A stretch of DNA of 32,571 nucleotides from a virus. A model generated the notes under the pieces. It was given only the letters and a program-made list of their open reading frames with translations, was not told where the DNA came from and searched no databases. The stretch's first letter is position 1; each line of letters opens with the position of its first letter. The position numbers and the translations under genes are program-made. This document shows positions 5,642 through 24,897 of the stretch, piece by piece. The DNA lies in IMG/VR virus record IMGVR_UViG_3300021478_000088, positions 1-32,571 of that record, one strand, 5' to 3'.

Positions 5642-8032
5642 TTACGGCTGCGATTCGGCAGGCAGCGCCGACTGGTTGGCCCTGGTGCCCGGCGCCTCTT
5701 GCTTGACGGTGACGGTGAGCGTCCCGTTGCGGAGCCCGTCCTTCACCCCGTCCGATACGGTGCGCGCGAGCATGAGCGCCTGTTCCGCGCTCATGAGTTC
5801 CTTCTCGGCCGCCGCGACGCCGGTCTTGCTGAAGTCGATTCCCTTCGCCTGGGCCGCCGCCGCGAGCTGCTCGGTCGTTGCGTTGCCCTGAATCCCAAGC
5901 GCGCCGGCAAGCCCGCGCCGCTCCTGGTCACGGCGACCGCGCGCTGCCGCGACCGCGCCCGCGAGCTGCACCGCGTGCTCACTTAGGATGTCTGCCGTCT
6001 CGCTTGGGATCCCGACCGCTCCCCCGACCGGTGCAGCAGGCATCGGTCCGAACTGCCCCGGGATGAGCGGCGCCTCCTTGCCCGACGTCCCCGCGGCGGC
6101 GCGACGCTCCGCGAGCGCGAGAGCCTTCGCGCTCGCGTCGGTCGTCTCCTTCGCCTGGCGCGCCGCCGCCTCCGTTTCTGCGGTCCCTGGCGCAATGCGC
6201 AGCGCCGCGGGCCCGCCGACGAGTTCCTCCCAGAACCCCTTCATCCCGGTCGGCTTTGTGTTCACACCGAGCAGCGTCTCCGCCGCGAGCGCGGCACCCT
6301 TCGCGAGAAGGACCATCTCCGGGGCAAGCGCGACGACCGCGGGGAGCATCTCCTTTTGGAACTGCTCGGCGGTCTCCTGGATCTGGTCGTTGAAGACAGC
6401 GACCTGGCTCTTGCTGTTCTTCATCGCCAGCTTGAAGTCTTCTTGAACCGTCGCCTCGTCCATCATGTCGACGGTGAGGCGGTGGAACTCCTCGTTCACG
6501 GCAGCCGTCGCCGCGGCGAGCTTCTCCTGGTCGGTCCCCTTCGTGCCGGTGTAGCCCTCCTTGAAGACGCTCTCGAAACCGGCCGTCGCGCGCATCGCCT
6601 TCACGTCGCCGTAGAGCGCGGTGAGGTTCGTCTCGAAGTTCTGCCAGCCCTTCGCCGCGTCGCGGGAGCCAATGGCTCCCGCCATGGGCAGCTTCTTCCC
6701 GCCGGGCGTGAGCCGGAAGCCGCCCTTCATCGCGGCGACGAACGACTCGACGATGAGCTGCTGCGGGTCGCGAATGCCGCCGCCGGCGTCGTACGCCTGG
6801 ATGCCGAAGCCGCTGAACGTGTCGAGGCGCTGCCGCTTCCGGAATACGTTCGTGAATTGCTGGACGCTCGTGGCCGCCTGGCTCGCGCTCGCCGCGCCGC
6901 CGCGTCCGCGCGCCTCCTGCGCCATCGCGCCGAGGATGCCGATCGTGTGCGACCGGTCGCCCGAGAACATCTGCGCGGACGACGCGATCTTCGCCATCTG
7001 CGTCGCGAGATCCTTGATGAGGATCGCGCCCGTCTTGCCCTCGGACGAGACCTGCTTCATCACGTCGTAGAGGACCTCGGCCTTGTTCGGCATGTTGCCG
7101 AGGGTGTTCGACGCCGCGCCCGCCGCCTCGACCATCTCCTCCAGGCTCGAGCCGGTCGCTTTGGACAGGACGGCCATGTGCTCGAGCGACTTGCGCCCGA
7201 GGTCCAAGTCGCCCGTGAGCCCGACGAACTTCTCGAGCCCGAGCCCCGCCTCGTTCGCGGTGAAGCCCGTGCGCTGTCCGATCTTGTGCGCCTCGTGGAG
7301 GAGCACCTCCGGGTCGATGCGTTGGGAGTTCGGGCCTCCCGTCCCCGGCATGTAGCCGAAGCTCGAAATGTTCCGGAAGAGTTGCTCGTTCTTCTGGCTC
7401 TCCGCAAACATCGACGTGGTGTCGGTGTTGACGCCAAGCCCGTGAAGGAAGTCAGCGCCGAGCGCGAGCCCGCCGTGGATAGCCCCCATCCCGATGCGCG
7501 AAGCGACGCTGCCATAGCCGCCAAGCGACCGCTGCTTCGTCCAGAAGCCGGGCGCCAACGATCCGGCCAATGCCGCGTAGCTAGCACTCCCGAACTGCGC
7601 CATCCCCGCACCCGAGATGCCGTAGTGCTTGAGCGCGCCGGAGGGTGCAGCGGGGCCTAGACCAAGGGCGATCTTCGCGTTCGCCCGCTCGATCTTCGCT
7701 AGCTCCGACTGCGCGACACGCGCGACCGTTTGGAGTTCCGGTGGCAGCTTGCGCAGTTCGGCGGCGAGCTGCTCAAACTTGCTCTTTGCGCCTTCAGCGA
7801 CGGCGCCCATGTTCTGCTGAAATTGCTTCCCGGATTGACCCGCGCGCGCCAGCGCTTCCCCGACCTTAGCCGGCATCGTGCGGTACGGTCCAAGCCCCGC
7901 CTGCGCGCCCGCACCGAGATCCTGCCCCATCTTTTGGCCCGCGCGCTTGCCCGCGGTGACCATCGAGTTGAAGACGTTCGCAAGCGACGCGTCGACCGCC
8001 GCGACAATGCGAACGCGAATGGGGGGTGCCAA
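5642..8032 (-). CDS. Tail tape measure protein
   Basis: At 796 residues this is the longest protein in the tail module apart from the head polyprotein. It is Ala/Lys/Glu-rich and largely helical, and it sits just before N as tape measure genes do. It sets tail length and is threaded through the tube for DNA entry. A core segment around residues 230-420 (with QRTGFTANEAGLGLEKFVGL and the GAASNTLG region) matches the conserved tape-measure core of phage TP901-1-like minor tail proteins. A hydrophobic stretch lies near residues 590-625. The start is TTG at 8032; the first residues (PPIRVRIVAAVDASLANVF) look coding and no better ATG lies upstream. The ribosome site is the weak GAAGAAGA at the end of the preceding gene. 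Confidence 0.85.
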   Translation of the reverse strand: MAPPIRVRIVAAVDASLANVFNSMVTAGKRAGQKMGQDLGAGAQAGLGPYRTMPAKVGEALARAGQSGKQFQQNMGAVAEGAKSKFEQLAAELRKLPPELQTVARVAQSELAKIERANAKIALGLGPAAPSGALKHYGISGAGMAQFGSASYAALAGSLAPGFWTKQRSLGGYGSVASRIGMGAIHGGLALGADFLHGLGVNTDTTSMFAESQKNEQLFRNISSFGYMPGTGGPNSQRIDPEVLLHEAHKIGQRTGFTANEAGLGLEKFVGLTGDLDLGRKSLEHMAVLSKATGSSLEEMVEAAGAASNTLGNMPNKAEVLYDVMKQVSSEGKTGAILIKDLATQMAKIASSAQMFSGDRSHTIGILGAMAQEARGRGGAASASQAATSVQQFTNVFRKRQRLDTFSGFGIQAYDAGGGIRDPQQLIVESFVAAMKGGFRLTPGGKKLPMAGAIGSRDAAKGWQNFETNLTALYGDVKAMRATAGFESVFKEGYTGTKGTDQEKLAAATAAVNEEFHRLTVDMMDEATVQEDFKLAMKNSKSQVAVFNDQIQETAEQFQKEMLPAVVALAPEMVLLAKGAALAAETLLGVNTKPTGMKGFWEELVGGPAALRIAPGTAETEAAARQAKETTDASAKALALAERRAAAGTSGKEAPLIPGQFGPMPAAPVGGAVGIPSETADILSEHAVQLAGAVAAARGRRDQERRGLAGALGIQGNATTEQLAAAAQAKGIDFSKTGVAAAEKELMSAEQALMLARTVSDGVKDGLRNGTLTVTVKQEAPGTRANQSALPAESQP

Positions 8033-8036
8033 GGGG

Positions 8037-8510
8037 TTAGTCTTCTTCGACCATCACGCCGCGATCGAGCAGCCGAGCGAGCACGCCGCGCTCCCCCGGC
8101 TTTCCGTTCCAAACCGTCGCGCAGCCCTTCGCCATCGTTTCCTGGCCGGGCGTGCGCCGGACGACGGGCGTTCCCATCCAGATGACCAGCTCGCACGGAG
8201 TGCCGGTCGGGTTCAGGTCGAGCCACTTGCGAAGGGCGCGGACGGCGGCGACGCCCTCCACGATCCACGGCCCGGGCGACGCCTTCATCCAGCGCGCGCA
8301 TTCCGCGGACGCCTCGCTCCAATCGTGCGAGTCGATGAGGTCGTCGGTCTTGTAGACCCGGCCTCCGAAGAGCGCGCCGATGGTCTCCGCGAGCGTGGTC
8401 TTGCCCGTGCGCGGGCCGCCGGCGAGGACGACCCGCTGGGCCCCCTTTCGCATCTTGGCGGCGAGCCGCTCGGCCGTGGTGCCGATGGCGTGGGCGATGG
8501 GGTCGTTCAT
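8037..8510 (-). CDS. P-loop nucleotide-kinase-like protein
   Basis: A 157-residue protein with a clear Walker A motif GGPRTGKTT (residues 31-39), followed by YKTDDLIDSHDWSEAS and a segment PWIVEGVAAVRALRKWL. This is the layout of small adenylate-kinase-like P-loop proteins often found in phages. It should bind ATP or GTP and may phosphorylate a small substrate; the substrate cannot be read from sequence. I chose the ATG at 8510 because its ATGA overlaps the stop of the small membrane gene upstream, so the two are coupled. Its place between chaperone and tape measure genes is unusual, since kinases are not part of the tail assembly pathway. Confidence 0.75.
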   Translation of the reverse strand: MNDPIAHAIGTTAERLAAKMRKGAQRVVLAGGPRTGKTTLAETIGALFGGRVYKTDDLIDSHDWSEASAECARWMKASPGPWIVEGVAAVRALRKWLDLNPTGTPCELVIWMGTPVVRRTPGQETMAKGCATVWNGKPGERGVLARLLDRGVMVEED

Positions 8511-8668
8511 AGCGTTCCGAGGAGGAAGTGGCGGATGGCGCAGACGAGCGCGACGTTCAGGACGGCGAGGATCCAAGCGGCGACGAGCCAGCCTCGGCGC
8601 GCGCGGACCGTGCGGTGCTGGTAGCGGAGCTCGAAGTAGAGCGCCCGAAGGATGATGGGGTGAATCAC
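8507..8668 (-). CDS. Small single-span membrane peptide
   Basis: A 53-residue reading frame with a GTG start overlapping the TGA of the upstream tail gene (GTGA) and a TGA overlapping the ATG of the kinase-like gene (ATGA). It has a positively charged N-terminal half (ELRYQHRTVRARRG) followed by one hydrophobic helix (WLVAAWILAVLNVALVCAI), so a cytoplasmic N-terminus and one transmembrane span are predicted. The double overlap is the best argument that it is translated. A holin-like or kinase-anchoring role is possible, but nothing in the sequence decides this. Confidence 0.6.
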   Translation of the reverse strand: MIHPIILRALYFELRYQHRTVRARRGWLVAAWILAVLNVALVCAIRHFLLGTL

Positions 8669-9318
8669 GCGGTGACGCGGATCGAGTAGTCGCTCTCGCC
8701 GTCCTCCGCCGCCTCGTGGTCACTCTCGCCGTCCGCCACATCGGGCACGACGCCGGGCGCCTTCACGCGGAGCGGCTCGAGCGCGCACGCGAGCAGACGC
8801 AGCACCGCGAGTTGCTCCGCGCGTGGGAGCGCGGCGATCGTACCCACCCGGATGTGCGCGATGAGGAGCGCGAGGTCCTCGTCGTCGGCGACGGGAGAGA
8901 CGGGGCTCACCTTCGCACTTGCGGCCTGCAAGGCCTCGAAGACGAACTTGATGCCCGCGGGGCTGAAGTACCGGAAGACGTGGTCCTCCATCGCGGGGAG
9001 GTCCTTGTGCATCTCGAGCACGTCGTTCGGATCGCAGACCGCGTGCGCGATCGCAAAGCCCATGATGCGCGAGGTGTAGACCTCGTTCTCCACCTCGGCG
9101 GAGGGCCGCTTCGCCGCGGGGTCGTCGAGGTGGAGGAATTCGACCGTGGTGCGCGCAGCCTCACGCGTCGCCTGCTGCGCCTGCTGCTCGCTCAAAAGAC
9201 GAAGGCCCACTGCAATCGCTGCAGTGGGCCTATGCTCCCAATCGTCGGAGAACGCCGAGACGGGAATGATCATCGTGCTCGCCGGCTTCCGAGACCGGAC
9301 GTCCGCGAGGGTTGCCAT
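8665..9318 (-). CDS. Tail protein of unknown function (chaperone-adjacent family)
   Basis: A 217-residue mainly helical protein. The segment AVGLRLLSEQQAQQATREAA near residues 36-55, followed by YTSRIMGFAIAHAVCDPND, resembles a family found just before tape measure genes in many tailed phages, where it is thought to take part in tail assembly. The C-terminal 30 residues are acidic. A perfect 12-bp stem-loop followed by TTCGTCTTTT lies inside codons 29-39 (see separate entry), so transcription may partly stop here. The ATG at 9318 has only a weak ribosome site (GAAGA). Confidence 0.6.
   Translation of the reverse strand: MATLADVRSRKPASTMIIPVSAFSDDWEHRPTAAIAVGLRLLSEQQAQQATREAARTTVEFLHLDDPAAKRPSAEVENEVYTSRIMGFAIAHAVCDPNDVLEMHKDLPAMEDHVFRYFSPAGIKFVFEALQAASAKVSPVSPVADDEDLALLIAHIRVGTIAALPRAEQLAVLRLLACALEPLRVKAPGVVPDVADGESDHEAAEDGESDYSIRVTA
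9203..9231 (-). terminator. Terminator-like stem-loop inside a coding region
   Basis: The bases at 9203-9214 and 9220-9231 form a perfect 12-bp inverted repeat (arm AGGCCCACTGCA) around a 5-base loop. Read on the minus strand the stem is followed by TTCGTCTTTT, the arrangement of an intrinsic terminator for leftward late transcription. It lies about 90 bases inside the 8665-9318 gene. A 12-bp perfect repeat with a short loop is very unlikely by chance even in GC-rich DNA. It may work as a partial terminator that lowers expression of downstream tail genes. Confidence 0.55.
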
Positions 9319-9332
9319 GTCTTCGGTCGTTC

Positions 9333-10072
9333 CTATTCCGTGGAGGTGTTGACGGTGCTCTCGCCCGCCCAGGTCTCGACCGGCTTCTTGTCCTTCAGGA
9401 GCTGCCCGCGCGCGTACGCGACTTCCGCCGCGGTGTAGGCGACGACGACGTCGGGGTGCTCGTCGAGCTCTCGGTCGACGTACCAGGCCCAGACTTGGGC
9501 TCGAGTAAGCTCACACACTGGCTGGCCATAAAACGCATGTAGCGGAGCCGCATACTGAGCCCGCACCCGTCGAAAAAACGGAGACTCTCGTCCCCTTCTT
9601 TCGCGAGTTCGCGAACGCCGGCGACCATCTCAAGGTCGCTCATGTTCCGCCGCATCGGCGAGACTTCGTCGGCCCAGTGCTCCGCGATGCGGAACAGGTA
9701 CATGATCGTCTCGCGCTGGAGCTCGCCGAGGATCTCCTCGACGCCGGAGCCGTACGGCTGTCCGTCGAGCTTCAGGCACGTGCCGTCAAACGTCGGCGCC
9801 CTGCGCCCTGGCTCCCCGCTCGACGGATCGCGAATCGTGAGCTCGACGACCTTCGCCGCGTAGGCCAGATCGTAGAGCGGGTTCCCCATCGTGGCGTGCT
9901 CCGCCGCGACGCCCTTGTCCTTCGCGTACTTCAGCGCGAAGGCGAGGCACTCGGCTTCCTCGTCGCCCGCCATCGCGACCGCGACGCACGTGAGCCCCGT
10001 CTCGGAGCCCGGGATGGGGCAGTTGAGCGTGCGCTCCGCGCGCCGCCCCTTCATCGCTTGGGCGTACTTCAC
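9333..10072 (-). CDS. Tail assembly chaperone, long product made by -1 frameshift
   Basis: The zero frame starting at 10072 is read to the slip site at 9572-9578, where a -1 shift joins it to the frame that ends at 9333. The fusion has 167 zero-frame residues plus 79 from the -1 frame, 246 in all; the added part includes LHAFYGQPVCELTRAQVWAW and YVDRELDEHPDVVVAYTAAE. In lambda (G/GT), P2 (E/E') and the Mu group, two chaperone products made in this way bind the tape measure protein and recruit tube subunits during tail assembly. The position just after the tube gene fits. The slip sequence, a continuous open -1 frame and the gene order agree; product ratio is unknown. Confidence 0.72.
9395..10072 (-). 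CDS. Tail assembly chaperone, zero-frame product
   Basis: The unshifted frame encodes 225 residues, starting at GTG 10072 directly after the TGA of the small zinc-ribbon gene. Residues 1-167 are ordinary globular sequence (CVAVAMAGDEEAECLAFALKY region, then GVEEILGELQRETIMYLFRI). After the slip site the zero frame runs 58 more residues that are Ser/Thr/Pro-rich and end in basic residues, which look like low-complexity read-out of a non-coding frame. This supports the view that the conserved information continues in the -1 frame. It would be the more abundant of the two chaperone forms if slipping is inefficient, as in other phages. An alternative start is the ATG at codon 7. Confidence 0.72.
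   Translation of the reverse strand: MKYAQAMKGRRAERTLNCPIPGSETGLTCVAVAMAGDEEAECLAFALKYAKDKGVAAEHATMGNPLYDLAYAAKVVELTIRDPSSGEPGRRAPTFDGTCLKLDGQPYGSGVEEILGELQRETIMYLFRIAEHWADEVSPMRRNMSDLEMVAGVRELAKEGDESLRFFDGCGLSMRLRYMRFMASQCVSLLEPKSGPGTSTESSTSTPTSSSPTPRRKSRTRAGSS
9572..9578 (-). other. -1 ribosomal frameshift site T TTT TTC
   Basis: On the minus strand the heptamer is TTTTTTC, phased as T TTT TTC in the zero frame (CGT TTT TTC), which is a canonical X XXY YYZ slippery sequence. After a -1 slip both codons read TTT and decoding continues CGA CGG GTG into an open frame of 80 codons including the stop. P2 uses the closely related T TTT TTG between E and E'. I did not identify a clear downstream stimulatory hairpin. 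Confidence 0.72.
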
Positions 10073-10177
10073 TCAGGGACCTTTCGGGGGCGGGGGCGCC
10101 TTCACGCTGCCGCACTTCGTGCAGCGCCCGTCATCCGCAACGCTCTTGCAGCCGCACGCGCGGCAGGTGCGGCTCAT
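10073..10177 (-). CDS. Tiny zinc-ribbon protein
   Basis: A 34-residue protein with two cysteine pairs, CRACGC and CTKCGS, the minimal zinc-ribbon pattern (CxxC-x9-CxxC, allowing for the third cysteine), and a Pro/Lys tail. GGGAG is placed six bases before the ATG, and its TGA is directly followed by the GTG of the chaperone gene. It lies between an HNH endonuclease gene and the chaperone gene. Function unknown; such micro-ribbons can bind nucleic acid or serve as assembly factors. Confidence 0.6.
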   Translation of the reverse strand: MSRTCRACGCKSVADDGRCTKCGSVKAPPPPKGP

Positions 10178-10224
10178 GTCCGGCTCCCAGCCACGCGGCT
10201 CGCCGGCGGGACGACTGGGCGTGG

Positions 10225-11079
10225 TCACGTCTTCGTTCTCGAGCCGGCGACTCTGCGCCCGCCTCTCGTTCCAATCGACGTCGTCACGGCGTCCTGTTCG
10301 CTCCAGCCGTCGTTGATACGGCTCCAAATGTGATTCGGCGTTCCGCCAATCTTCTTCGCCCACTCGGCGATCGTCATCGACTTGCCGTTCGCCTCGACTA
10401 GACGCGATCTCGGTGCTGGCGGGGTGAGCACGGTGCGCTCGTCCGACCAGCCCGCACTGAGCCGAGCGTCCAGGGTGCGCCGGTGCACACCCAGCTTCCT
10501 CGCCCAGTCGGCCAGGATGAGCCTCTCACCGTTCACCTCGATGTATCGGTTCGACGACTTGTTGCGAGCCTGGGCCTTGGAAGACGCCCACTTGCAATTC
10601 GTCTTCGTGACGCCGCGCGCGTGGCAGTCCTCGCACTTCCCGCAGTCGTATCCCGCATCGTTATCGATGCGGTCAATCGACAATCCCTCGGGACGAGCCC
10701 CAAGATCTGCGAAGAAGTGCTCGAATCCACCTGGGCGCTGCCATCGTGCGCAAACCAGTATGCCGCGGCCACCGTAGCGGTGGTAGGCGACGTGCTGCTC
10801 GTTGAAGCAGCGATCCTGCATCGACTCCCATACCTTGTACGACGACGACGACCGCCCATTCGCGAAGTGCCCGTGATGATCGTAGCGCCTGACCTCGGCG
10901 CCGGATGACTTCTTCGACAGCAAGCACCACGCGCAGTCGTCCACGAGAGGCGCGCCGCCCGGCGTGCAGAATACGACCATCTCGCGTCCGCAGTCGCACC
11001 GGCAGAGACGGCCGCTTCGTACCGTTAGCCCAAAACCGACCTGGACCCTTACAACACCGCCGATTGGCCTAAACGCCAT
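10225..11079 (-). CDS. HNH homing endonuclease with two helical DNA-binding repeats
   Basis: This 284-residue protein has the phage HNH layout: YKVWESMQDRCFNEQHVAYH and YGGRGILVCARW (residues 81-113), then SIDRIDND (134-141) with NCKWAS (161-166), in which the Asp, Asn and Asn/His positions form the beta-beta-alpha-metal site. Cysteines at about 26-30 and 146-152 may bind zinc. After residue 175 there are two similar modules, ADWARKLGVHRRTLDARLSA and AEWAKKIGGTPNHIWSRIND, each followed by GWS; these look like NUMOD-type DNA-binding repeats. The start at 11079 was chosen because a promoter-like TACAAT ends six bases upstream. It interrupts the tube-chaperone order, so it is probably a mobile free-standing homing gene. 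Confidence 0.8.
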   Translation of the reverse strand: MAFRPIGGVVRVQVGFGLTVRSGRLCRCDCGREMVVFCTPGGAPLVDDCAWCLLSKKSSGAEVRRYDHHGHFANGRSSSSYKVWESMQDRCFNEQHVAYHRYGGRGILVCARWQRPGGFEHFFADLGARPEGLSIDRIDNDAGYDCGKCEDCHARGVTKTNCKWASSKAQARNKSSNRYIEVNGERLILADWARKLGVHRRTLDARLSAGWSDERTVLTPPAPRSRLVEANGKSMTIAEWAKKIGGTPNHIWSRINDGWSEQDAVTTSIGTRGGRRVAGSRTKT

Positions 11080-11123: not shown

Positions 11124-11501
11124 TCAGGTAATTTGTGGTTGCCCGCCCACCAATGTCCACTTGGACATCTGCGTGCCGGTCTTGTGGTGCGACGTCGCCC
11201 CGCCGGTGATGATGCGCATCGTGACCGTGTGGGTCTGCCCGTCCACGGGGAACAGGGAGACCTTCACGTTCCGCTTCGCCTGCATCGCGGCGAAGAGGAG
11301 CTTCGAGTCTCCACCGAGCAGCGGGTTGATGCCGCCGAGGGTGAGCTTCGTGTTGATGGCGCCGTCGGAGACGCCAATAACGCCGGGGTCTCCGTACTGG
11401 AGTTCGTCGCCCGAGTTGTACTCGTAGTCGCTCTCTTCGAACGTGCCGCCCTTCTTGCCGTCGACGTACACGCTGGCCGAGCGAACGCGAATCATCGCCA
11501 T
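11124..11501 (-). CDS. Tail tube protein (Mu gpM-like)
   Basis: A 125-residue protein directly following the sheath gene (apart from one small peptide), where the tube gene M is always found in contractile-tail clusters. It is rich in short beta strands: VRSASVYVDGKKGGTFEESD at the start, NTKLTLGGINPLLGG in the middle and the ending MSKWTLVGGQPQIT. The size suits the Mu M family, which forms stacked hexameric rings inside the sheath. Codons 1 and 3 are both ATG; GAAGGA lies nine bases before the first. The call rests on size, beta pattern and position. Confidence 0.75.
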   Translation of the reverse strand: MAMIRVRSASVYVDGKKGGTFEESDYEYNSGDELQYGDPGVIGVSDGAINTKLTLGGINPLLGGDSKLLFAAMQAKRNVKVSLFPVDGQTHTVTMRIITGGATSHHKTGTQMSKWTLVGGQPQIT

Positions 11502-11543: not shown

Positions 11544-11702
11544 TCAGGCGGTGGGGAGCGCGCATCGCGCGCACGCCGCGCGGAGATGCTCGAGGCAGCG
11601 GTGCGGGAACGGTTCGACCGGCAGGTGCGCGACAAGCGAAAGGGGCGCGGCAGCCTTCGCTGCGCGCGCCCCTCGTTTGCCCTTCGTCTTCGCGCGCCTC
11701 AC
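11544..11702 (-). CDS. Small basic Cys/His peptide, coupled to the sheath gene
   Basis: A 52-residue frame starts at a GTG that overlaps the sheath TGA (GTGA). The N-terminal third is strongly basic (RRAKTKGKRGARAAKAAA) and the end contains FPHRCLEHLRAACARCALPT, which has the spacing of a small zinc knuckle. It overlaps a strong RNA hairpin at 11641-11673. It is too short for similarity by eye and may not be translated; the start-stop overlap and the Cys/His cluster are the arguments for it. Confidence 0.45.
   Translation of the reverse strand: MRRAKTKGKRGARAAKAAAPLSLVAHLPVEPFPHRCLEHLRAACARCALPTA
11641..11673 (-). terminator. Strong GC-rich hairpin between sheath and tube genes
   Basis: The plus-strand bases from 11641 read AGGGGCGCG GCAGC, loop CTTC, then GCTGC G CGCGCCCCT, a 14-bp stem with one bulged base. 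On the minus strand it is followed by TTCGCTTGTC, only a poor T-tract. It could be a weak terminator or an RNA-stabilising or processing element that lets the sheath and tube mRNAs reach different levels. It falls inside the proposed 52-codon peptide. Confidence 0.5.
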
Positions 11703-13426
11703 GGCGTCTGGAGAACGCTCTGGCCCAGCTGGTGGTCGCCCGGCATCGGCTGGACCGTGACGGCCGACATGATACGGCCGGCGATCGGGTCGAAGGCCGA
11801 GACGACCGGGTTGTTCGCGACGTTGTAGATGATGGGCGGCACTTGCAGCCCCTGGACGATGCCGTTGCCGAAGTCGGCGAGGATCGAGGTCGCGGTGCTC
11901 GACCAGAGCGCGGGGTACGCAACGCCGGCCGGGTACGGCACCGAGTCGGCCGGGAGGTCCGGCGCGACGCGCGGGTTCGACGGCTTGAAGACGTTGATCC
12001 AGAAGAGGAGGAGCGAGACGAGGACGAAGTCGGGGACGACCGCCTCGCTCGTGTCCAAGCACGAGTAGTCCGGGAGCGTGCCGTTCAGGGAGTGGGTCGT
12101 GATCGACCGCACCATGACGGCTTGCCCGCTCGGGCTCGTGGAGATCGGCGTGACGCCGTTGTTCAGCGCCGAGACGAGCGTGGAGTGGATCGCCCAGTCC
12201 GCCCGCTGCGACTGCGGCGCGACGCCCGGGAGGACCATCCCGTCGTAAACGGAGCTCGCCGCCGGATCGACCGCTTCGTTCGCCGTCCGGAGCGCCGCCC
12301 ACACCCCCGCGAGCTCGGTGTAATGCGTCTCCGAGTTCAAGTACCAGAGCAGTTGGAAGCGCTGGTCGTTGAGGGTCGTCTGCGCGAGGCTCGTCGCCGT
12401 GGCGAGCGTGGAGTTCGTCGCCGCGATGACGTGCTGCAGGATGAGCGAGAGGGGGCCCGCCTGCGTGTCGACCTGCGTCTTCCAGCGGCCGAGATTGGTC
12501 GCGTCGTTCTGGCAGAGCGCGATGCGGTCGTACTGCGCGTTGTTGATGTACGCGAGGATGTTGGTGACGTTCTCTGCGCCCGAGCCGCCGCCGGCGGAGA
12601 TTCCGCCGCCCGTGACGACCAAGCCGAAGCACGTCCAAACCGCCGCGCCGTCGGTGACGGTCGCGCCGATCGTGGTCGGCCACGTAGGCTCCGACGCGCC
12701 GATCGCGCCGGACGTCGTGCACTTGTAGTAGAAACCGCTCGTGTGCGCCGCGCTCGGCTGGACGTACGTGCCCACCGCGGGGACCGTCACGCTCGGCGTG
12801 AAGGTGCTCCAGAGGACGCCGCCGAGGGTGGCCGACACGCCGGGGCAGAGCAGGTAGCTCGCGAAGGCGATGTAGCTGTTGCCGTCGAGGCCGGGCGTGA
12901 TGCAGGTCGCGGTGACCACCGCGCCGACGGCGACCGCCGTGAACGGGCAGCGCGTCGTCGCGTTGATCTGCGCGGCGACGTTCGTCGCGATGACGGACGC
13001 AATGTCGGAGGCGCCGACGCCCACGCTGATCGTGAGTCCGGCGATGCGCAGGATGAGCGTGACGGGGATCGTCTGCGACGCGGTGATGAGGAACGTGAAC
13101 GTGGCTTGCGTCGCGCCGCCGGGGACGGCGACGGGCGCGCCGTACACCTGCACGCCCTGAATCCCGACCGCGGCCTGGACGCAGCGCGCGAGCTGGCTGC
13201 CGGCGCCGTAGAGCGTGTCGGCGGTGGGGACGTCGGGGATGAAGTCGACCTCGGCGTCCTGCACGGACGTACCGATCGCGTTTGACGCCTTCATGCCGAC
13301 GCAGAGCAGCTTGAGCGGGATGCTCGCCGCGCTCGTGGCGCCGGCGCCGTACTTCACCTGTCCGGCGGCGATCGGGACGAAGTCGGTGGACGGGAAGCCG
13401 ACGATGACGATGGAGGGGCCGCTCAT
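11699..13426 (-). CDS. Contractile tail sheath protein (Mu gpL-like) with inserted beta module
   Basis: A 575-residue sheath protein, somewhat longer than Mu L. The N-terminus has the family start SIVIVGFPSTDFVPIAAGQV, and IPLKLLCVGM, ADTLYGAGSQLA and the DIASVIATNVAAQINA repeat region are typical. The C-terminal half has YDRIALCQND, DQRFQLLWYLN and VPDFVLVSLLLFWINVF, the conserved core that locks onto the tube. Residues about 205-268 form a separate module with YYKCTTSG, EPTWPTTIGATVTDG and VWTC, a pattern also found at the C-terminus of the 14265-15371 protein; it probably loops out on the tail surface. A ribosome site (GGGACAG) lies in the end of the upstream gene. Confidence 0.9.
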   Translation of the reverse strand: MSGPSIVIVGFPSTDFVPIAAGQVKYGAGATSAASIPLKLLCVGMKASNAIGTSVQDAEVDFIPDVPTADTLYGAGSQLARCVQAAVGIQGVQVYGAPVAVPGGATQATFTFLITASQTIPVTLILRIAGLTISVGVGASDIASVIATNVAAQINATTRCPFTAVAVGAVVTATCITPGLDGNSYIAFASYLLCPGVSATLGGVLWSTFTPSVTVPAVGTYVQPSAAHTSGFYYKCTTSGAIGASEPTWPTTIGATVTDGAAVWTCFGLVVTGGGISAGGGSGAENVTNILAYINNAQYDRIALCQNDATNLGRWKTQVDTQAGPLSLILQHVIAATNSTLATATSLAQTTLNDQRFQLLWYLNSETHYTELAGVWAALRTANEAVDPAASSVYDGMVLPGVAPQSQRADWAIHSTLVSALNNGVTPISTSPSGQAVMVRSITTHSLNGTLPDYSCLDTSEAVVPDFVLVSLLLFWINVFKPSNPRVAPDLPADSVPYPAGVAYPALWSSTATSILADFGNGIVQGLQVPPIIYNVANNPVVSAFDPIAGRIMSAVTVQPMPGDHQLGQSVLQTP

Positions 13427-21663: not shown

Positions 21664-22305
21664 TCAGACGGCGACGTCGAGGGCGAGGTATTCCTTCGCC
21701 GCCTTGATGAGCTGCTGCTCGCTCATCCGGAGCACCATGGCCTGCGCCTCGCCGAGCGAGACCCGGCCCGTGCGCGCGATCGCATGGGAGAGCGCGACCT
21801 GATCGATCTTCACCTTCTCGGGGTCACCGACGCGGGCGACCGTGGGCTCGCGGGTGTTGCCGCCGGCGACGATCGTGCGGCCGAGGTGTTGCTTGTCCTT
21901 CGGGACCTTCGGGTAGTACGCCGCGAACGCCGCCGGGCAGTTCGTGCGGTACTCCGTCAGCTGGGCGCGCATCTCTTCCTTCGCGCCCTTCGTGTCGGAG
22001 TAGAAGGCGATCGCGTCGGTCACGTCCTGATCGATCGTGGCCTTCGCGTGCTCGTCGAGAAGGACCTGCTGGTCGGCCAGCTTCTTTCGAAGCGCCGTGA
22101 GCTCCGCATCCTGGAGCGAGAACTTCGTCGTCAGGTCGGTCGCCGCCTTCTCGGCCGCGGCGCGCGCGGTCTTCTCCGCCGCGAGGTTCTGCTCGCTGAG
22201 CGTGAGCTTCTGGGTGACCTCGGAGAGGTCGGTGCTCGCCTTGACGAGCTTGGTCTGAGTCTCGCTGAGGAGCGTCGTCACCTTGTTCTCATCGCTCATG
22301 GACAT
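21664..22305 (-). CDS. Nested scaffold protein from an internal start
   Basis: Within the fusion gene, codon 865 is ATG (22305) preceded by GGGAGAC, a good ribosome site, with a second ATG two codons later. Initiation there would give a separate 213-residue product containing the coiled coil (SDENKVTTLLSETQTKLVKA onward) and the C-terminal domain. In Mu the scaffold gpZ is made in this way from inside the protease gene I, and lambda Nu3 is nested in C likewise. The acidic linker just before (TSDEGDLDGSTGD) marks a domain boundary. The inference is good but not proved by sequence alone. Confidence 0.6.
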   Translation of the reverse strand: MSMSDENKVTTLLSETQTKLVKASTDLSEVTQKLTLSEQNLAAEKTARAAAEKAATDLTTKFSLQDAELTALRKKLADQQVLLDEHAKATIDQDVTDAIAFYSDTKGAKEEMRAQLTEYRTNCPAAFAAYYPKVPKDKQHLGRTIVAGGNTREPTVARVGDPEKVKIDQVALSHAIARTGRVSLGEAQAMVLRMSEQQLIKAAKEYLALDVAV

Positions 22306-24897
22306 GTCTCCCGTGGATCCGTCGAGGTCGCCCTCGTCGGAGGTGTTGAGGCCGTCGGGAGACCCGCCGGCGTGGTACTCGAGTTCGTGTTCGCGGATCG
22401 CCGCGTCGATGAGCTCTTGGACGATGTCGAACACGCCCTCGTCCCACTTCGCCCCGGGGGGCGCGTTGACGAGGTCGCGGAGTCCAAAGCAGTACTTGGC
22501 GAGGCTCGTGCCCTGGTGCATCCCGTTCGGGTCACCGCCGCACGCCGCGAACTTGTCGCGCAAATTGTCGAGGTGCTCGGAGCACTCCGCCGCCGGCGCG
22601 AGCTCGTGCAGACCGAAGATCTGTTTGATCTTCGGCATGTACTCGTGGCTTGCGTGCGCGAAGCCCGCGCGCGTAGACATGAGCGACAGCTGCCGCGGCG
22701 CGGGCGTCGTCGCCGTCTCCTTCTGGTTCTCGCTCGCGACGAGGCGCGCGAGGTCCAGGAACGGCTGGTTCGTGAGTCCCGCGGACGAGAGGCGCGCACC
22801 GATCGGCTCGCCCGTCACCTTGTCCTTCGCCCCAAACCGGATCGCGGGCGAGATGCCCTGGTACTCGCCCGACCGGATGTAGCCGCGCGCCTTCTCGCCC
22901 CACGCGACGTGGCCCCAGAGGTGGCCGCGGTCGTCGAGCCGGAGGTCGTGGATCCAGCCGCACGCGGGCGTCCCGTCGACCGGGATGTTCCCCGAGGCCG
23001 GGTCCTGCTCGGACGCGTGGTTGAAGTCGATCGGGATGTTGCGGTTCGGGTTCTTCGCTTTGTCGGCGTAGAAGTTCCGCACCATCTCGGCGAAGACGCC
23101 GGGGGTGAGATTGATGTCGCCGGCGGGGTGCCCCTTGTAGTGGCCGGGCGCGCCGAGCTCGATCCAAACCTTGCGGTCCGTCTCGGACATCTTCGCGGCG
23201 GCGATCGTCTCCTCGCTGAGAGAGATGATGTCGCCGATCGCGCGGGGTCCAAGCTGGCTCATGAGAGATCGCACGTGGATATGCCCGCCCTTTCCGAGCT
23301 CGCCGTGGATACGGACGCGCCCGCCGCCGGTCTTCTTCGGCGCGTACTTGGATTGGACGCCGAGCTCCCGCGCGCGCCGCGCGATGTTGCGCTTCGCCTC
23401 GCGGTACTTCGCGCCGCTGATCGCCCCCTTGCTCTTCTCGCCCTCGAGCCGCGCCGCCGCGTTGTGCACGTGGGTCGCGTCTTCGATCGGGTACTTCTTC
23501 TCCTTCGGGAGGGCGAAGTGCTCCTTCGGGATGCGCTTGCGAGCTTTGGCGGTGAGGACGCTCATCTGCTTGGGCTCGGTGGCGGGTCCACGGCGGTAGC
23601 GCGCGCTGCCGGAGGTGACGTGGACGTCGCCCGGGCCGATGTCGGCGAAGCCGTGCGCGAGGTCGAACGCCCCCAAGTCGAGGAGGTGCTTGACCGTCGC
23701 GCCGTACAGCCGCGCCTGCGCGAGGAGGTCGCCCGGCCGCATCCATGCGGTGCGCGTGTTCGGCTCAAGCGCCTGCGCGTCGCCGGTCCAGCCGCAAACC
23801 CGGAAGACGGAGACCTTGCGGCCGTCGGTCGGCGACTTGATGTCGCAAACGTGGATGCACCCGGCGTTGACGCTGTTCGGGTCGGTCTTGAGCGCCAGCG
23901 CGGCAGCGATACCGGTCTCCTCGCGGAGTTCTCGGATCGCCGCCTTCAGCGCGTCCTCTCCCGGATCGACGAGCCCGCCTGGGATCGCCATCTCGTGGGG
24001 CGGCTCCGGGCGGGAGACCGTGAGCACCTCCCCCTGGACGTTGACGACGATCGCGAGCGCGGCGTCGCCCTCGCGCCAGCGCCGTTCCTCTGCGTCGGAG
24101 AATGGCGCTCCCGCCGCGGCGTAATGTCGGTCGTACGCGCGCTCGACGGCCGATTGCACCTGACCGATCCAAAGCGGACAGCTCGGATGATGCACGCCCG
24201 AGAAGACGCCGACGCCGCGCATCCCGAACGGCTTCTGACCATCGTGCCACGCGAAGTTCTTGCAGCGCCCGCAGGAGACCTGCTCGCGCGAATACTCGCC
24301 GAAGCCGCGCGTCGCCACGTTCGTGGGGTGCTCGTCGGTCGCTCCGCCCTCGTCGAACGGCTTCGACGGATCGGACCGGGACGTGTGGTGCTTCGACGAG
24401 CCCTTCTTCTGGGCGCTATGCAGATGCGTCCAGGGACCCTCGGGGACCGGGACCTTGCAGATGAACGCGAGTACCGGCCTGCCGAGCAGCTCGCAGGCGA
24501 GCGTGCGGTGGTGACCGTCGATGATCTCCAGCTTCGGGTTGCCCGGCCGCTGGACGAGGACGACGGGCTTGTTCTTCTCGTCCGCGAGCTTCTTCGCGAA
24601 GTGAGCGACTTTGCCGTCGGTGCTGGCCGTCCACGAGTCGCGTGTGGAGAAGTCGATCTGGCTGAGATCGACTTCGACCGGACCGCGCCAGTGCCCCGCG
24701 AGCACCCACGCCAGGTCGCGCGCCGGATAGTCGTCGAGTAGCTGCTCGTAGACTACGCGCGCCGGATGCGCGTCGGGGCGCGCGTCCGCCATGAGGACGG
24801 CGCGGTGCTCATTCGCGAGCGCCCGCTCTTCGGCGCAGGCGACGAAGGTGTCGTCCGGCCACACGAGGGACGCGGCGACGATTTGCGGTCGCGTCAT
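21664..24897 (-). CDS. Fusion protein: ParB-like, Nudix, Mu-gpI-type protease and scaffold
   Basis: A 1077-residue protein with at least five parts. Residues 70-150 are a ParB/sulfiredoxin-like domain with IDGHHRTLA (126-134). Residues 205-245 have CGRC and a later HHPSC, a possible zinc site. Residues 275-400 are a Nudix hydrolase with a complete Nudix box at 308-330 (G-x5-E-x7-REL-x-EE-x-G-I). Residues 445-515 resemble DUF6582 (HFALPKEKKYPIEDATHVHN). Residues 575-720 match the Mu gpI protease (WIELGAPGHYKGHPAGDINL, IPIDFNHASEQDP, YQGISPAIRFG). Residues 870-950 are a coiled coil and, with the rest, the scaffold. It should process and assemble the procapsid. The Nudix and ParB parts are not expected in an assembly protease. 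Confidence 0.82.
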   Translation of the reverse strand: MTRPQIVAASLVWPDDTFVACAEERALANEHRAVLMADARPDAHPARVVYEQLLDDYPARDLAWVLAGHWRGPVEVDLSQIDFSTRDSWTASTDGKVAHFAKKLADEKNKPVVLVQRPGNPKLEIIDGHHRTLACELLGRPVLAFICKVPVPEGPWTHLHSAQKKGSSKHHTSRSDPSKPFDEGGATDEHPTNVATRGFGEYSREQVSCGRCKNFAWHDGQKPFGMRGVGVFSGVHHPSCPLWIGQVQSAVERAYDRHYAAAGAPFSDAEERRWREGDAALAIVVNVQGEVLTVSRPEPPHEMAIPGGLVDPGEDALKAAIRELREETGIAAALALKTDPNSVNAGCIHVCDIKSPTDGRKVSVFRVCGWTGDAQALEPNTRTAWMRPGDLLAQARLYGATVKHLLDLGAFDLAHGFADIGPGDVHVTSGSARYRRGPATEPKQMSVLTAKARKRIPKEHFALPKEKKYPIEDATHVHNAAARLEGEKSKGAISGAKYREAKRNIARRARELGVQSKYAPKKTGGGRVRIHGELGKGGHIHVRSLMSQLGPRAIGDIISLSEETIAAAKMSETDRKVWIELGAPGHYKGHPAGDINLTPGVFAEMVRNFYADKAKNPNRNIPIDFNHASEQDPASGNIPVDGTPACGWIHDLRLDDRGHLWGHVAWGEKARGYIRSGEYQGISPAIRFGAKDKVTGEPIGARLSSAGLTNQPFLDLARLVASENQKETATTPAPRQLSLMSTRAGFAHASHEYMPKIKQIFGLHELAPAAECSEHLDNLRDKFAACGGDPNGMHQGTSLAKYCFGLRDLVNAPPGAKWDEGVFDIVQELIDAAIREHELEYHAGGSPDGLNTSDEGDLDGSTGDMSMSDENKVTTLLSETQTKLVKASTDLSEVTQKLTLSEQNLAAEKTARAAAEKAATDLTTKFSLQDAELTALRKKLADQQVLLDEHAKATIDQDVTDAIAFYSDTKGAKEEMRAQLTEYRTNCPAAFAAYYPKVPKDKQHLGRTIVAGGNTREPTVARVGDPEKVKIDQVALSHAIARTGRVSLGEAQAMVLRMSEQQLIKAAKEYLALDVAV

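Follow-up and report, generated by a model that had tools for sequence, protein, structure and literature searches.

Does gene A, a minus-strand reading frame located between the probable tail tube gene and the tape measure gene of a phage, encode one protein or two? The question is raised by a T TTT TTC heptamer within the gene, where the first-pass annotation had proposed a -1 frameshift of the G/GT tail-chaperone type. We addressed it in the window, the whole stretch of 32,571 bases that was analysed, and by comparison with a related locus, L002, found on the viral contig IMGVR_UViG_3300044819_000132, which carries the same tail block. The features of the locus and of its neighbourhood are collected in Table 1.

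Table 1. Features of the gene A locus and the neighbouring tail genes in the window.
Feature	Coordinates	Strand	Basis	Remarks
Gene A, zero frame	10072-9395	minus	ORF reading	GTG start, 225 aa, G-like product
Gene A domains	9395-10072	minus		residues 1-167 conserved; tail beyond becomes Ser/Thr/Pro/Arg-rich
Slippery heptamer T TTT TTC	9572-9578	minus		phased for -1 tandem slippage
-1 frame extension (T-like)	9333-9572	minus		79 codons, then the stop at 9333; fusion product of 246 aa
Block frozen at the nucleotide level	9490-9612	minus	codon comparison with L002	rich in A/T-ending codons
Stem-loop CUCGCGAAAGAA-GGGGAC-GAGA-GUCUCC-G-UUUUUUCGACGGG	9566-9607	minus	folding	slip site in the 3' arm
Shine-Dalgarno-like AAGGGG	9592-9597	minus		13 nt 5' of the heptamer, kept in L002
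Tail sheath	11699-13426	minus	phrog_165, E 4e-39	82% identity to L002
Probable tail tube	11124-11501	minus	directly after sheath	125 aa; 73% identity to L002; no clear family match
HNH endonuclease gene	about 10225-11079	minus	phrog_3377	between tube and gene A
Zinc-ribbon-like ORF	10073-10228	minus		51 aa, between tube and gene A
Gene B	8665-9318	minus		217 aa, next ORF towards tape measure; 67% identity to L002
P-loop kinase-like small gene	8037-8510	minus		between gene B and tape measure; 76% identity in L002
Tape measure protein	5642-8032	minus	phrog_4704, E 0.002	position before the DNA_circ_N hub gene

Reading the reverse complement confirmed the annotated phase of the heptamer: its first T occupies the third position of a zero-frame codon, so that both Phe codons are able to slip back by one base. 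The -1 frame, annotated as open for 80 codons, runs for 79 codons from 9572 to the stop at 9333. The Ser/Thr/Pro low complexity that had been described for the zero frame after the slip is present, but it starts only about 30 codons past the slip site; the zero frame itself continues for 58 codons beyond the slip, and its L002 counterpart for 74. In the window, with its GC content of 68%, the T run of the heptamer is the sole run of six A or six T, and among about 6,670 codons of the main genes there was no other in-phase XXXYYYZ heptamer with X and Y restricted to A or T. In this genome codon-position GC is a strong signal, with values of about 0.65/0.48/0.91 at the three positions in most of the window's other genes. 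This pattern changes frame at the heptamer: upstream of it the zero frame reads 0.68/0.46/0.91, while downstream the values are 0.71/0.46/0.79 for the -1 frame and 0.46/0.73/0.80 for the zero frame.

The same switch was found in L002. When the 246 aa fusion was compared with this locus by tblastn, residues 1-167 aligned in one frame (68% identity) and residues 166-246 in the -1 frame (68% identity), and the switch falls at an identical T TTT TTC, at the matching codon. Conservation of the heptamer in homologues had been set earlier as a test of the frameshift, and in the one relative found it is kept. The C-termini of the -1 frame are nearly alike in the two phages (GESTVNT followed by three residues in each), nucleotide identity along gene A varies between 56 and 92% in sliding windows, and in L002 the stop codon of the tube gene overlaps the GTG of gene A. 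The conservation of the slip site and of the frame switch refers to this one pair, as viral contigs searched with both parts of gene A, the tube, the sheath, gene B, the MW202476 ORF described below and a conserved DNA string yielded only one contig with gene A. No match to gene A turned up by tblastn in phages or plasmids, and none to the tube or to gene B in phages, and the tube and tape measure queries retrieved nothing from genome contigs. The Manatee Spring phage MW202476, whose sheath and tape measure are distantly related, has a single-frame ORF of 266 aa before the tape measure gene. An alignment of this ORF with gene A spans the junction but is weak, and that with gene B is of about the same quality. 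As none of these comparisons was significant, we do not propose that the chaperones are fused or paralogous.

To learn which frame is under selection we dealt out anew the substitutions observed between the window and L002 in 4000 permutations and recorded protein preservation by frame. In the 108 bases 3' of about 9490 the -1 frame protein was preserved better than in any permutation (0/4000), while preservation of the zero frame was less clear (P 0.08). Selection acts on the -1 frame downstream of about 9490. The initial 84 bases past the slip belong to the frozen block, where changes are few and clumped and neither the -1 frame (P 0.08) nor the zero frame (P 0.03) was singled out, so that dual coding by the zero frame is no more than a possible cause of the conservation there. 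Within the block protein identity is higher in the +1 frame than in the other two, with a permutation P of 0.0035, and as the substitutions are clumped this identity may be their by-product. Past the slip site the +1 frame meets a TGA at 9513-9511 (minus strand), about 20 codons on, at the same place in the window and in L002. As a baseline for the block, 30% of the degenerate codons encoding the same residue differ silently in nine aligned coding stretches. A/T-ending codons for the same residue were identical in L002 in 14/16 cases within the block and in 27/149 cases elsewhere (Fisher P 4e-8), and nowhere in the comparison are identical A/T-ending codons as numerous as in the 25-codon window that begins at 9601.

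The frozen block contains the stem-loop that encloses the slip site. Its inner part consists of 6 bp closed by a 4-base loop and followed by one G and then U6, and was scored as terminator-like. The stem-loop is stronger than expected from synonymous-codon randomisation in both phages (P 0.0005 in the window and 0.0135 in L002), and the few positions at which the two differ are confined to the loop and the base pair that closes it. AAGGGG is part of the 5' arm. Shine-Dalgarno-like stimulators of -1 frameshifting are stated to lie 9-14 nt upstream of the slip site (PMC5009743), and with its spacing of 13 nt AAGGGG falls within this range, in agreement with an optional 5' stimulator; it is perhaps a frameshift stimulator. 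Folding of the sequence 3' of the heptamer was no better than that of shuffles (z -0.55 and +0.44), a search for a downstream pseudoknot disclosed only short conserved long-range complementarities, one of them a possible pairing of bases 10-15 with bases 119-124 as counted from the first T of the heptamer, and an Rfam search gave no match.

A second conserved hairpin, of 12-13 bp followed by TCGTCTTTT, is located at 9190-9237 (minus strand), within the first 130 nt of gene B. About 45 nt of it are identical in L002 while the flanks are about 60-65% identical, and all of its A/T-ending codons (7/7) are identical as well (P 1.4e-5). Together with the slip-site stem-loop it provides the only minus-strand terminator-like matches between 5000 and 14000, and no frame change occurs at its site. 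This hairpin, which we take to resemble rrnB T1, is possibly an attenuator that sets the ratio of the upstream tail genes to the tape measure.

To get at the identity of gene A we examined its gene neighbourhood. The order on the minus strand is sheath, probable tube, the HNH insert, gene A, gene B, the P-loop kinase-like ORF, tape measure and DNA_circ_N hub, where the tube is assigned from its position. The first-pass annotation had placed gene A after the tube gene, and it does occupy the G/GT slot (E/E+E' in P2) between tube and tape measure, but in the window the HNH endonuclease gene and the zinc-ribbon-like ORF intervene, both of which are missing in L002. Gene A had no significant match in Pfam, PHROGs, PDB or the Foldseek viral library. 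The model of its N-terminal part was of low confidence (pLDDT 58), and its best viral fold matches had E values of 0.1 or worse, a few of them, with E 1.6-3, named tail assembly chaperone. The accepted members of the tail-chaperone frameshift class show low sequence similarity among themselves, too (PMC5009743). As family, PDB and fold searches gave no significant match, it is from gene position that we infer a role as tail chaperone. The earlier assignment to the G/GT type gains support from the gene order and from the heptamer and frame switch kept in L002, and gene A very probably belongs to this familiar class of tail-assembly frameshifts. Gene B may be a second chaperone-like protein; its model was of low confidence (pLDDT 53) and the fold search with it was uninformative. 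At the site of the small P-loop kinase-like gene, next to the tape measure, a nucleotide kinase-like protein would not be expected. Elsewhere in the window, a 1077 aa ORF (21664-24897, minus strand) combines NUDIX (278-393), DUF6582 (453-515) and Mu-like prophage I protease (612-782) domains.

The heptamer of the lambda G/GT pair differs from T TTT TTC. What lambda shares with gene A is a place ahead of the tape measure gene and two products from one start, whose ratio depends on -1 slippage (PMC5009743), whereas its proteins have no detectable sequence similarity to gene A and the tail of the window phage is contractile. P2 (Peduovirinae) is close: its E/E+E' pair has TTTTTTG at the same gene position, in the interval between tube and tape measure of a contractile tail, and the six-T run is likewise read as X XXY YYZ and in the -1 direction, without a clear downstream hairpin (PMC3091744), just as gene A shows no unusual downstream stability. 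The two differ in the last base of the heptamer (G in P2, C in gene A) and in the size of the N-terminal part, which is larger in gene A, with 167 aa before the slip, while P2 E measures 91 aa in full. Gene A further differs in being without a detectable family match and in having a long zero-frame tail and a stem-loop that encloses the slip site.

Could the frame switch arise in some other way than by ribosomes slipping? The T6 tract, the only one in the window, is a homopolymer at which a sequencing or assembly error, or decay of the gene, might be suspected. Yet the similarity to L002 jumps from the zero frame to the -1 frame at the same heptamer, a jump that a sequencing error is very unlikely to explain; this diverged contig shares both the T6 and the switch, with both parts of the protein conserved, and the -1 frame is under selection, so that we regard error or decay as extremely improbable. 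It is also highly doubtful that there are two overlapping genes, the -1 ORF starting independently of any frameshift. The -1 frame does contain a GTG codon, at 9566, whose valine is kept in L002, but no Shine-Dalgarno sequence is suitably spaced from it, the nearest, AAGGGG, being about 26 nt off, and an independent start would leave the conserved heptamer, its exact phase and the frozen codons unexplained.

Slippage of RNA polymerase deserves more attention, although we consider it unlikely. According to this explanation the nascent 6-bp stem-loop before U6 realigns the polymerase, and transcripts with U7 or U4 are then read in the -1 frame. The terminator-like score of GGGGAC-GAGA-GUCUCC with its one G and U6, the strength of the stem-loop beyond what codon choice predicts, the freezing of the sequence and the +1-frame stop, whose position the two phages share, are all in its favour. 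So is the layout of a Roseiflexus IS630 element, in which a 6-bp stem with a 4-nt loop stands directly before the T tract (PMC5009743). That element, however, concerns a transposase gene with U5C5 and the loss of one C (PMC5009743), while gene A is a tail gene with U6 C, and to reach its -1 frame the transcript must gain one base or lose two. The loss of one base known from the stem-loop case would thus lead to the wrong frame in gene A: T6 minus one base gives U5 and the +1 frame, which meets its stop about 20 codons after the slip. Slippage that is free of context has been described for about nine T or A, or for more than eight T (PMC5009743, PMC3711429), and here there are six. Moreover, the phase of the heptamer and the Shine-Dalgarno-like element are expected only if it is the ribosome that slips. 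That polymerase slippage at the nascent stem-loop and U6, or polymerase and ribosome jointly, determines the chaperone ratio in this lineage of phages seems to us improbable too; were the polymerase involved, a third, truncated form would come from U5 transcripts, whose reading ends at the conserved +1-frame stop.

We favour, with good confidence, a programmed -1 ribosomal frameshift of the G/GT type by which gene A gives two products. Weighing against it, conservation comes from a single relative, chaperone families and folds gave no significant match, the zero frame continues well beyond the slip, the sequence 3' of the heptamer forms no unusually stable structure, and the stem-loop with U6 fits RNA polymerase slippage too. 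Under ribosomal frameshifting, two proteins would be made from the single start. The majority of ribosomes would stay in the zero frame and produce the short, G-like form of at most 225 aa, and some, with tRNA-Phe in the P and A sites at U UUU UUC, would slip one base back and add the 79 codons of the -1 frame, giving the GT-like fusion of 246 aa. If lambda G/GT and P2 E/E+E' are a guide, the shared part would bind the tape measure while the -1 domain recruits tube subunits. The rate of slipping would fix the ratio of the two products and may be tuned by AAGGGG, and perhaps also by the stem-loop.

The probable frameshift of gene A is ordinary in kind, and the one odd thing about it is that the slip site sits in an unusually well-preserved RNA hairpin. 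Frozen block and stem-loop add a detail that is not described for the P2 relatives compared, and the stem-loop at the slip site makes the choice between ribosome and RNA polymerase directly testable. The 79-codon extension would probably be missed by automatic annotation, and with gene A the class of tail-assembly frameshifts very probably gains a member in a phage lineage that has no matches to chaperone families.
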